A stretch of DNA of 64,000 nt, from contig JAQYVF010000012.1 in assembly GCA_030145625.1 (NCBI GenBank), forward strand, positions 1 to 64,000. Reading direction: 5' to 3'. The notes under the pieces are model-generated. The model was not told the DNA's origin, ran no database searches, and saw only the letters and a program-made list of their open reading frames with translations. Source of the stretch: Desulfocapsa sp. GTDB taxonomy: Bacteria; Desulfobacterota; Desulfobulbia; Desulfobulbales; Desulfocapsaceae. A program made the translations under genes and the position numbers. Shown here piece by piece: positions 50,341 to 54,298 of this stretch. Each line of letters opens with the position of its first letter. Positions within the stretch are counted from its first letter, which is position 1.

Positions 50341-51681
50341 ATGCAGAATACGAAAAACAACCAAGCCCCCCTTGCAGAACGGATGCGCCCGCAATCCCTC
50401 CATGAATTCATTGGCCAGGAAAAACTGCTGGGAAAAGGAAAACTTCTGGATAGCATGCTGGAGTCAGGCATACTTCCTTCTCTCATCCTCTGGGGTCCAC
50501 CGGGAACCGGAAAAACAACGCTTGCCAGAATTCTGGCAAGATCTACATCAGCTGATTTTGTTTATTTTTCGGCAGTTCTTTCCGGAGTGAAAGAGGTAAG
50601 AAAGATCGTTGAGCAGGCAGGACAACTCAGAGACAAAGAAAATAAAGGAACCATTTTCTTCATTGATGAGATCCACCGGTTCAACAAAAGTCAACAAGAT
50701 GCATTTCTTCCCCATGTGGAAAACGGACTTTTCACCTTAATTGGTGCCACTACGGAAAACCCTTCTTTCCAGGTAATTGCACCTCTTCTCTCAAGGTGCC
50801 GGGTCCTTGTCCTCACCCCTCTCTCGCCTGACAGCCTTCACACCATATTACATAGGGCTCTGGTTGATAGTAACAATGGCCTGGGAACCCATAAACTGAC
50901 TCTTGATGAGAAGGGCCTCGGACTCCTCGTTGCATTGGCTGACGGTGATGCCAGAAAGGGACTAAACACCCTCGAAATCGCAGCAACTATTGCACATCAC
51001 CGTTTAAAGACAAATAGTGACCTAAAAAAAACCATCTCCCTGGATGATATAAGAGAAGCCAGCCAACAGACGACCCTGCGTTACGATAAAGATGGAGAAG
51101 AACATTACAATCTGATTTCAGCCCTGCACAAAAGCCTTCGTGATTCCGATCCTGACGGCAGCCTGTACTGGCTCTACCGCATGCTTGCTTCCGGTGAGGA
51201 TCCACTCTATATCTGTCGAAGACTGATTCGCTTTGCATCTGAGGATATCGGTCTTGCTGACCCCCAGGCCTTGATCCACACAATATCCTGCAGGGACGCA
51301 TATCATAGCCTGGGACTCCCTGAAGGCGGATTAGCCATCGCTCAGGCTGTTGTCTATCTGGCCACGGCCCCCAAAAGCAATAGTCTCTACAAAAGCGAAA
51401 AAGAAGTAAAACAAACCATTGGCCGCAGTGGTTCACTTCCTGTCCCTCTTCATCTGCGCAATGCCCCCACCACCTTGATGAAAAAACTTGACTACGGCAA
51501 AGGCTATAAGTATGCACATGATGCGAAACAGTCACTGGTTGACCAGGAACATCTTCCCCAGGAACTCAAGGGAGAGCGTTTTTATTCTCCCACAACCCGA
51601 GGGTATGAGGCCCTTATCAAAGACCGCCTAGACAAATGGCGAGTCATTCTTCAACAGAGAAAAAACAATGCAAAGCCATAA
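50341..51681 (+). CDS. rarA: Replication-associated recombination protein A (RarA/MgsA)
   Basis: 446 residues, AAA+ ATPase of the RarA family: LRPQ-like N-terminus (LAERMRPQSLHEFIGQ), Walker A WGPPGTGKTTLARI, Walker B FIDEIHRFNKSQQDAFL, sensor 1 GATTENPSF, and the C-terminal tetramerisation region (ALHKSLRDSDPDGSLYWLYR). It acts at stalled replication forks. The last 14 bases overlap the start of the cytochrome gene. Confidence 0.95.
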   Translation: MQNTKNNQAPLAERMRPQSLHEFIGQEKLLGKGKLLDSMLESGILPSLILWGPPGTGKTTLARILARSTSADFVYFSAVLSGVKEVRKIVEQAGQLRDKENKGTIFFIDEIHRFNKSQQDAFLPHVENGLFTLIGATTENPSFQVIAPLLSRCRVLVLTPLSPDSLHTILHRALVDSNNGLGTHKLTLDEKGLGLLVALADGDARKGLNTLEIAATIAHHRLKTNSDLKKTISLDDIREASQQTTLRYDKDGEEHYNLISALHKSLRDSDPDGSLYWLYRMLASGEDPLYICRRLIRFASEDIGLADPQALIHTISCRDAYHSLGLPEGGLAIAQAVVYLATAPKSNSLYKSEKEVKQTIGRSGSLPVPLHLRNAPTTLMKKLDYGKGYKYAHDAKQSLVDQEHLPQELKGERFYSPTTRGYEALIKDRLDKWRVILQQRKNNAKP

Positions 51682-53284
51682 ACTCTATTTTCCGGGGAAA
51701 CTCCTGTTTTGGGGGCTACCGCTCTTCTTTTTTTTTAGTTTGAGCAGCACCCTTCACGGTGCCTCCTCAACACCTGCTCTCCTCTTCTTTTCTGACAACG
51801 TCCAGGGCGAAACAGAACCGTGCGGCTGAAAATCCAAACAGTTGGGCGGTCTGTCCAAAAAAATATTTCAGATTGAATCTCTCACTGATCAACACAAAGA
51901 AGATAAACTTCTACTCGATTCCGGCAATCTTCTTTTCAAACGCCCAAGCGTTGCCGCAGGTCCGAGTCAGGAGCGACTCACGGCACAAACCATTATGCAG
52001 ATTTATCAAAATATCGGCTATGATGCTGTGGGAATCGGTCCACTGGATATGGCTGCGGGTATTGATTTTCTACAGACTGAAGCAACTAAAGACTTCCCCT
52101 GGATTTCAGCCAACATCTTAGATGATCATGGTCAACCACTCTTTCCTCAATGGATCAACAAAGAAGTACAGGGCGTACAGGTGATAATTACTGCTCTTTC
52201 CGCTCCGCCGAAAAATATTTCCCCTGCCGTAAAAGTTGCTCCATGGGAATCCATCCTGCCTGAGCTCATGCCGCGACTCACTAAAGAGAGCAAAACCCCC
52301 TTCATCATTCTTCTCTCCACTCTCTCCACAGAAGAAAACCGTCTTATTGCTGAACAGTATCCAACCATCAACCTCCTGTTAGGTGCAAATCAACATCAAA
52401 GGAACGCATCCCCACGACTCATTAACAATACCCTTGTGACTCAAACGGAAAAGCAGGGACAATATCAAGGACTCCTGGAAATTAATTTTGGTAAACAGCG
52501 GAGCTGGGGACAAAACAGGGAAAAACAAATTGCGGATCTGCAAAACAGGTTAGGTTCACTGAACTGGCAACTTCAACGACTGGAAAAAAAATCAGCAAAG
52601 AGTGCATCCAAAGAAAAATACTCCAGGACCATCGAACGATTACACAAAGATCGGGAAGAGATAACCGCCAAGATCACCTCATTACAAGAAGCTATGGCAC
52701 AGGAGCAATCTTCCGACATACTCACCGATCAATATAAATACCGCTTTATTGGTCTGAAAAAGAATCTGCCCAATGATGCCAACACCGAAAAGATTCTTCA
52801 AAACCTCAACCAACGAATCAGACAGCTCCACAAAAGGCCGCGCAAATCCCAGAACACAGCGAACAGCAAGGCACCCTTTGCTCCAGGACATGACCTCGTT
52901 GGATTCCGGGTATGCGAAAGTTGTCATCCCACCCAGACAGAATTCTGGCAAACCACACAGCACGCAAATGCGTATACAACTCTGGCAAAAAAAGAGAAAA
53001 ATCTGGATCTTGAATGTCTTCCCTGTCATGTGACAAGAAATCTGTTCAGCACCAATCACCAAGATCTCTCAAAAGAGACCCTCCTTTCTTTGCCAAGGGA
53101 GTTACAATCAGTTGGCTGTGAAAACTGTCATGGGTCAGGAAAAAAACACAGTATCGACCCGGAACGATTTAAAATGATACGCTTACCCGGGAAAAACATC
53201 TGCCTCATCTGTCACACGCCTGAACATGACGACAATTTTGAATACGAAACAAAAATTGTTCCGATCTCCTGTCCGGCAGAATAA
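51668..53284 (+). CDS. Putative selenocysteine-containing UshA-like/tetraheme cytochrome c
   Basis: Read from the ATG at 51668 the frame encodes a signal peptide (about residues 11-33) and then LLFFSDNVQGETEPCG, meets UGA at 51827-51829, and continues KSKQLGGLSKK for another 484 codons. Related exported proteins have a Cys where the UGA stands (PCGC-x4-LGGL), so the UGA probably encodes selenocysteine (codon 54) in a CGU motif. A SECIS-like hairpin follows. After the phosphoesterase-like N-terminal part (about 40-230) comes a coiled coil and four CxxCH heme motifs (CESCH, CLPCH, CENCH, CLICH), so the protein is likely a periplasmic or surface tetraheme cytochrome. If the UGA were a stop, the downstream part would lack an export signal, which hemes require. 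The start overlaps rarA. Confidence 0.8.
51830..51858 (+). promoter_or_regulatory. SECIS-like hairpin after the in-frame UGA
   Basis: TTGGGC (51842-51847) pairs with GTCCAA (51853-51858), leaving the loop GGTCT (51848-51852). The loop begins 18 bases after the UGA, the same distance and the same GGUCU as in E. coli fdhF mRNA, which SelB recognises. A caveat is that the loop also encodes the Gly-Leu of a conserved LGGL motif. Confidence 0.72.
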
Positions 53285-53290
53285 ATAACA

Positions 53291-53328
53291 AAAAAAAAGG
53301 TGTCTTTGGAAAAATCCAAAGACACCTT
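53291..53328 (-). terminator. Terminator between the cytochrome gene and ppaC
   Basis: AAGGTGTCTTTGGA and TCCAAAGACACCTT make a perfect 14-bp stem with an AAAA loop. On the minus strand it is followed by a long T-run, so it chiefly ends ppaC; it may also end the convergent cytochrome transcript. Confidence 0.92.
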
Positions 53329-53368
53329 CTATAAATAGCTATCTGAAAAATATCAGATCAAACCATCC

Positions 53369-54298
53369 TTAGCAGCCAAAAGCTTTCTGCAGATTAGGAA
53401 CGGTCTGTTTTTTACGGCTCATCATGCCGTCAACCCACATGGAAATACCGTCGAGTTTTCCATCGAAAGCACCTTCGATAAGAGCTGCGTCATCAGAGAT
53501 AACGACCAGGTCGGTACCTTCTTTGACAACATCGGTGAGCATAAGAAGAACAGTGTGACGTCCGTCAGCCTTAACTTCTTTCATGGCACCAATGAGATCG
53601 TCACGAATAGCAGCGACCTGATCAAGGGTAGCAAGCTCAAGCTGTCCAACACCAACTTTATTTCCCTTCATATCGAAGTCTTTGTAGTCACGGAAAAGCA
53701 GGTCTTTTGCAGGAACGCCGGCAACTGAAGATTTGGCCTTCAGCATATCCATGAACAGGCTGTCTGTATCATCAACACCAGCGATGGTTTTGAGATCGGC
53801 AACGGCAGCTTTGTCATCGTCGGTACAGGTGGGAGACTTGAAGTTTACTGTATCGGAAAGAATCGCGCTGAGCATTCCGCCGGCCACATCTTTAGGAATA
53901 GCAACACCGGCATCTTTAAACATCTTGTTAAGTACGGTTCCGGTGCAGCCAACAGGCTCGGCACGGAAGAAGATGGGCTGATTGGTGGTAACGTCACCAA
54001 TTTTATGATGGTCTACTATGGAAACCACCTCAGCCTCAGTGATACCTGCAGGACCCTGTCCGATATCGCTGAAATCTACCAGGGCAACGGTCTTGCCAGC
54101 TACATCATTCATCTCTTCAGGAGCGGTCAGACCGAAACGCTCAAGAACTACGGTAGACTCAGGATTGAGCTTATCAAGTGAAGTCTGCATACAAGCTTTT
54201 GCATCCTGTCCCTGAGCATTAAGAAGAGTTGCGAGACCAATGGCTGCGGTAACTGAATCTGTATCAGGATTTGAGTGACCTGTTACGTAAATTGTCAT
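53369..54298 (-). CDS. ppaC: Manganese-dependent inorganic pyrophosphatase (family II)
   Basis: 309 residues of the DHH superfamily: GHSNPDTDSVTAAIGLA, VDFSD, the DHH motif in VSIVDHHKIGDV, and the C-terminal DHHA2 domain ending SRKKQTVPNLQKAF. It hydrolyses pyrophosphate in the cytoplasm and is soluble, single-domain, without the CBS insert seen in some clostridial forms. In sulfate reducers it would pull sulfate activation forward; that link is general knowledge, not shown here. Confidence 0.96.
   Translation of the reverse strand: MTIYVTGHSNPDTDSVTAAIGLATLLNAQGQDAKACMQTSLDKLNPESTVVLERFGLTAPEEMNDVAGKTVALVDFSDIGQGPAGITEAEVVSIVDHHKIGDVTTNQPIFFRAEPVGCTGTVLNKMFKDAGVAIPKDVAGGMLSAILSDTVNFKSPTCTDDDKAAVADLKTIAGVDDTDSLFMDMLKAKSSVAGVPAKDLLFRDYKDFDMKGNKVGVGQLELATLDQVAAIRDDLIGAMKEVKADGRHTVLLMLTDVVKEGTDLVVISDDAALIEGAFDGKLDGISMWVDGMMSRKKQTVPNLQKAFGC

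Follow-up and report, generated by a model that had tools for sequence, protein, structure and literature searches.

Background

Selenoproteins with an UshA-like domain have already been catalogued in bacteria. A 2008 survey of 20 marine samples listed an UshA-like CxU protein (COG0737) with 76 selenoprotein sequences and 92 Cys homologues (PMC2398784). An UshA-like CxU protein is found again in the list of PMC9312934, UshA is named in PMC7435645 too, and the table of a 2026 review gives the NCBIfam family NF041198 as a CxU selenoprotein and a further family, NF049981, with the motif CxxU (PMC13188914). UshA is absent from the passages of PMC5029168 and PMC8318568 consulted here. The UshA-like CxU entries of PMC2398784 and PMC9312934 are very likely the same family as NF041198. 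In the portions of PMC13188914, PMC9312934 and PMC2398784 consulted, no function is given for UshA-like selenoproteins, and we recognised no functional study of the family in the literature searched, although one may exist. The relevant passage of the 2008 survey keeps the UshA-like protein, as it does SelD and FdhA, separate from the families in which a Cys-based redox motif is conserved, although the survey's table lists the motif as CxU (PMC2398784).

Selenocysteine (Sec) next to multiheme chemistry is not new in itself either. The multiheme selenoproteins ExtKL and an octaheme cytochrome family are entered in the review table just mentioned (PMC13188914), and the PDB contains a multiheme cytochrome c selenoprotein, MccSep (9wt8). 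Here we describe a gene with an in-frame UGA in a 64,000-nt stretch of Desulfocapsa sp. DNA (assembly GCA_030145625.1, contig JAQYVF010000012.1, positions 1 to 64,000), hereafter called the window. The protein is a member of the already catalogued exported family: it shares with NF041198 the full-model sequence, the PCGU motif, the UshA-like domain, the heme tail and the UGA position, and we found no essential difference that would make it other than an ordinary member. NF049981 is likewise a selenoprotein family with an UshA-like domain, with CxxU in place of PCGU. ExtKL (NF040886) and MccSep have in common with the window protein the pairing of Sec with multiheme c-type chemistry, and MccSep matches it over a short heme stretch only (E 0.009). 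Cytochrome c554 (1bvb; PF13435) resembles its C-terminal sequence, whereas the window protein fuses this c554-like part to an UshA-like domain. UshA, CD73 and SoxB share its N-terminal fold and differ from it in the residues at the ligand places, mostly changed here, in the Sec and in the C-terminal heme motifs. A sequence-only reading of the locus had expected Sec beside multiheme chemistry in an UshA-like protein to be unusual. That expectation does not hold, given that the family is catalogued and that ExtKL, the octaheme family and MccSep are known.

Results and discussion

Gene, product and family membership

The coding sequence lies on the forward strand at 51668..53284, from an ATG at 51668 to a TAA at 53282-53284, and specifies 538 amino acids with a single in-frame TGA at 51827-51829 (codon 54). 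Read through this codon, the joined protein matches NF041198 (UshA_like_PCGU, "UshA-like (seleno)protein") at 514 bits (cut-off 275), and the match covers positions 7-519 of the 519-position model. The same model matches all 46 aligned proteins (the window protein and 45 homologues) at E <=1e-10, and its cut-off is passed in 54 of 296 genomes drawn evenly from the phylum and in 0 of 14 control genomes. Two other assignments were tried and rejected, namely UshA-like selenoprotein family 2 (NF049981; 35.1 bits, cut-off 140) and SoxB proper (TIGR04486; 30.8 bits, cut-off 550).

A probable signal peptide occupies about residues 1-33 (51668..51766), where the N-terminus is hydrophobic and the structural model has a low-confidence helix at 10-26. 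The PCG(U/C) motif follows it. The sequence around the UGA reads ETEPCG(UGA)KSKQLGGL, PCGU being residues 51-54, and in alignment A1 C52 is conserved in at least 90% of sequences, with G53 and Sec/Cys54 invariant. The motif falls within an UshA/5'-nucleotidase/SoxB-fold domain (about residues 34-280; 51767..52507), after which comes a mainly helical stretch (52517..52834) modelled with helices at 284-311, 315-349 and 371-389 and a strand at 354-362. A cytochrome c554-like domain closes the protein (about residues 410-527; 52895..53248) and contains four CxxCH heme motifs, recognised as sequence motifs at residues 416-420 (52913..52927), 450-454 (53015..53029), 484-488 (53117..53131) and 512-516 (53201..53215). 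All of these features are on the forward strand, and the frame with one UGA, the hydrophobic N-terminus, ETEPCG, LGGL and the four CxxCH motifs were found just as the sequence-only reading had described them.

The C-terminal part matches Cytochrome_C554 (PF13435) at 45.8 bits, against a gathering cut-off of 20.8. Among solved multiheme proteins its best match is 6i5b, which is uncharacterized (E 3e-27), and c554 (1bvb) is matched at E 1.7e-15. Export and the attachment of four c-type hemes are predicted from these motifs. The heme domain is absent from the short homologues L062 and L065-L068, in which the gene order is the same and no CxxCH occurs on the same strand within 3 kb downstream; these are five of the seven short homologues examined, the others being L023, with too little sequence, and L024, with a CxxCH directly past the stop. 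In L024 (G051:C40) a TAG stands ahead of the heme domain and another heme-domain piece lies about 2.7 kb on; this domain is probably interrupted or decaying.

Gene surroundings

The selenoprotein gene sits between a rarA-like gene, whose 3' end it overlaps by 14 bases, and a convergent Mn-pyrophosphatase gene, with no adjoining cytochrome genes. An inverted repeat at 53292-53330, between the two convergent genes, looks by eye like a two-way terminator. An Rfam scan of 51600-53400 returned seven matches, none of which reached its gathering score.

Gene contexts were hand-picked for contig span and variety. Of 41 contexts (the window and 40 hand-picked homologous loci), 31 had a Mn-dependent pyrophosphatase gene close by and 23 a rarA-like gene, a neighbourhood that looks like inherited gene order and not a functional unit. 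In 20 hand-picked distant contexts, a 9-CxxCH cytochrome with a b561-type domain was nearby in nine, and a 16-CxxCH cytochrome with a NapC/NrfH-like start in seven (CxxCH motifs counted in three members of each cytochrome family, domains scanned in one member each). These multiheme neighbours favour an electron-transfer role in those distant genomes. At L125, L126 and L127, in three distant genomes, a tandem pair of UshA-like genes, each with a UGA, is found between members of the 9-CxxCH and 16-CxxCH cytochrome families.

Selenocysteine and cysteine at codon 54

Matches to the protein at E <=0.001 were obtained in 84 of 96 genomes (its own and relatives), some of them covering the heme domain alone, and a related-locus search of the genome contigs returned two close relatives only. 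In 52 distinct sequences, the window's included, codon 54 is TGA in 49 and TGC in three. Identical proteins were counted once in this set; the Cys loci were fetched deliberately, so the ratio 49:3 is no frequency, and the search pattern allowed UGA or Cys only, so that other residues at codon 54 were not countable. Left out of the set were L016, a motif-less fragment, and L058, a Cys locus that the pattern missed. At the Sec codon, Cys is found as PCGC in L055-L057 and as SCGC in L058; the sequence-only reading had taken the UGA to replace the second Cys of a PCGC motif, and the homologue search with the joined protein bears this out for some homologues. The homologues run through the UGA instead of ending there, and its recurrence in 49 of the 52 distinct sequences means that it is no sequencing error.

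A wider set holds 75 Sec genes and 12 Cys genes. Ten of 51 loci examined for it had no motif by the pattern (L108, L146, L148, L149, L151, L152, L155, L159, L160 and L161). Among these ten, L146 has ENCGC, L161 has PCPGU, several have altered motifs such as PCGTC, and L159 resembles an ordinary 5'-nucleotidase. Variants CGGU, RGGU and CGSU, with one additional residue ahead of Sec, were seen in L065, L066 and L068, and L066 is without the first Cys of the motif.

The genome contains the machinery that the sequence-only reading had proposed to look for (selA, selB, selC and selD). A selA gene is present and cut by a contig end; tRNA-Sec was found at 73.4 bits (cut-off 47) with the anticodon UCA, and selB at 374 bits (cut-off 242). 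There are two selD genes (L048 and L049), both above the family cut-off and each with one active-site UGA, in SGUAAK and CGUAAK. Since the tRNA-Sec, selB and selD searches each gave matches at E <=0.001 in all 14 control genomes, weak matches are unspecific, and only those above the cut-off were used.

The SECIS hairpin

A candidate bacterial SECIS hairpin lies at 51842..51858 on the forward strand (TTGGGC-GGTCT-GTCCAA), with the 6-bp stem, GGUCU loop (51848-51852) and 18-nt spacing from UGA to loop that had been described from the sequence. The published bSECIS model places the loop 16-37 nt past the UGA, sets an energy limit of -7.5 kcal/mol and, by its own description, does not fit all genes (PMC13188914, section 5). 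The loop of the window hairpin falls within that range and has a G in its first two positions; the 39 nt folded here reach -6.4 kcal/mol, short of the published limit, and in the 49 Sec sequences the corresponding 39 nt fold at -5.1 to -14.4 kcal/mol.

Constraint on synonymous codons was scored, ignoring kinship, as shared-codon excess in the 244 codon columns where 20 or more of the 49 Sec sequences carry the majority residue. The four highest columns are residues 60-63 (GGC, GGT, CTG and TCC), which run from the end of the 5' stem through the loop and over most of the 3' stem; the near-invariant Gly47 in the same set uses GGC 19, GGA 9, GGG 9 and GGT 10 times. In the 52-sequence set, all 49 Sec genes form the inner five base pairs and none of the three Cys genes does. 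The two positions of the outer stem pair change together, T being matched by A and C by G (46 of the 49 sequences, the three with a 5' A being left out; Fisher p 0.0006, ignoring kinship).

The exact register of the inner five base pairs is kept in 3 of 26 further non-duplicate Sec loci and lost in 23; by eye, the stem in distant Sec loci is often displaced by one or two bases around a longer loop. With the register left free, in a test devised after these shifts were seen and ignoring kinship, 71 of the 75 Sec genes could form at least 5 bp at the SECIS position. Synonymous shuffling gave an expectation of 23.3 such genes and a highest value of 34 in 300 replicates. The Cys genes gave no excess (3 of 12 against 2.9 expected). 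A plain energy test, again ignoring kinship, was weaker than the register-free test, with a mean z of -1.18 in the 75 Sec genes and -0.40 in the 12 Cys genes, and p <=0.05 in 18 and none of them, respectively. The sequence-only reading had cautioned that GGUCU also encodes the Gly-Leu of a conserved motif; the excess of pairing in Sec but not in Cys genes answers that caveat.

Fold of the N-terminal domain

An AlphaFold2 model of the protein has a mean pLDDT of 84.8 and a pTM of 0.80. The best Foldseek matches of the N-terminal domain to 5'-nucleotidases reach E 8e-16, and SoxB is matched at E 4e-14. In VIA-align, the 50 matches listed align over about 270 residues with Z between 27 and 31, and the values are about 30 to UshA, CD73 and SoxB alike (30.1 for SoxB 2wdc). 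As modelled, this domain folds like the 5'-nucleotidases and SoxB.

Alternative explanations

If the UGA were a true stop, the locus would encode a short exported peptide and a separate cytochrome ORF, or it would be a decaying gene. A TTG-started ORF does follow the UGA (51842-53284), and the window hairpin is by itself weakly unusual, with 12% of synonymous shuffles reaching 6 bp and 5.5% reaching its energy. However, that ORF carries the heme motifs and yet starts without a hydrophobic N-terminus, and a stop is further contradicted by TGA in 49 of 52 distinct sequences with Cys in the rest and by a synonymous constraint that is highest at the hairpin codons. We consider the chance of a true stop negligible. 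We are instead highly confident in the prediction, made from sequence comparison, that UGA 54 is read as Sec with the help of SelB, tRNA-Sec and the hairpin that follows it; the selenoprotein interpretation proposed earlier gains support from the machinery, the Sec/Cys exchange, NF041198 membership and the constraint on the SECIS codons.

With Sec inserted, the domain could still be an UshA-like metal-dependent phosphohydrolase in which Sec serves as an extra ligand or nucleophile, and the 5'-nucleotidase fold at Z of about 30 fits such an enzyme. We take the metal-ligand places of 5'-nucleotidases to be Asp-x-His, GD, GNH, His and GHxH. The window protein has N44, Q46, N87, P125-L126 and S217 at the aligned places, if those ligand identities are right. 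Of 46 sequences, 19 have Asp at column 44 and six have His at column 46, but only three have Asp at column 87 and none has His at column 217. Most of the ligand places being changed, the N-terminal domain is probably no longer a phosphohydrolase, and retention of that activity seems to us quite improbable. Less improbable, though still unlikely, is a SoxB-like enzyme of sulfur compounds, in which Sec54 would carry or cleave a sulfur substrate and the hemes would accept electrons, an idea that overlaps with the explanation we prefer below. SoxB aligns about as well as UshA, its model matches 12 of the 46 sequences at E <=1e-10, and the lineage looks like sulfur-metabolising Desulfobulbales, which is a guess. 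Against this, the window protein scores 30.8 bits where SoxB requires 550, UshA and CD73 fit equally well, and the recurring neighbours that were named, a minority of all neighbours, include no sox genes.

Proposed mechanism

We propose that the product is an exported protein of the NF041198 family in which the hairpin, SelB and tRNA-Sec would have UGA 54 decoded as Sec. Cys52-Gly-Sec54 would then do redox chemistry, either by forming a reversible selenenylsulfide or by attack of Sec on a periplasmic substrate, and would exchange electrons with the heme domain and with partner multiheme cytochromes. We infer such coupling of redox chemistry at Cys52-Gly-Sec54 to the hemes with a confidence somewhat short of even. 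Several observations speak against parts of it. Judged by sequence, the heme-free homologues speak against a strict coupling of Sec to heme, and L066, lacking the first motif Cys, against a universal selenenylsulfide. The passage of PMC2398784 that sets the UshA-like proteins apart from Cys-redox families speaks against a thiol-type redox role, and the non-cytochrome neighbours of the window gene speak against the redox reading as such.

A more far-reaching reading, which we put forward tentatively and with rather more doubt than belief, is that a metallophosphatase fold, its metal site lost, has turned into a redox enzyme. Its Cys-Gly-Sec pair, which would lie near the old active site, would pass electrons to or from the fused four-heme domain and, in other genera, to or from the 9- and 16-heme membrane-linked cytochromes encoded nearby; the substrate may be a sulfur compound.

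Conclusions

Correct annotation of the window gene requires readthrough of its UGA. For the family, our analysis adds evidence for the SECIS element at the RNA level, in the form of synonymous constraint, a contrast between Sec and Cys genes and some co-variation. The changed phosphatase ligand places and, in distant genera, the multiheme neighbours make periplasmic electron transfer a better place to look for its role than nucleotide hydrolysis.
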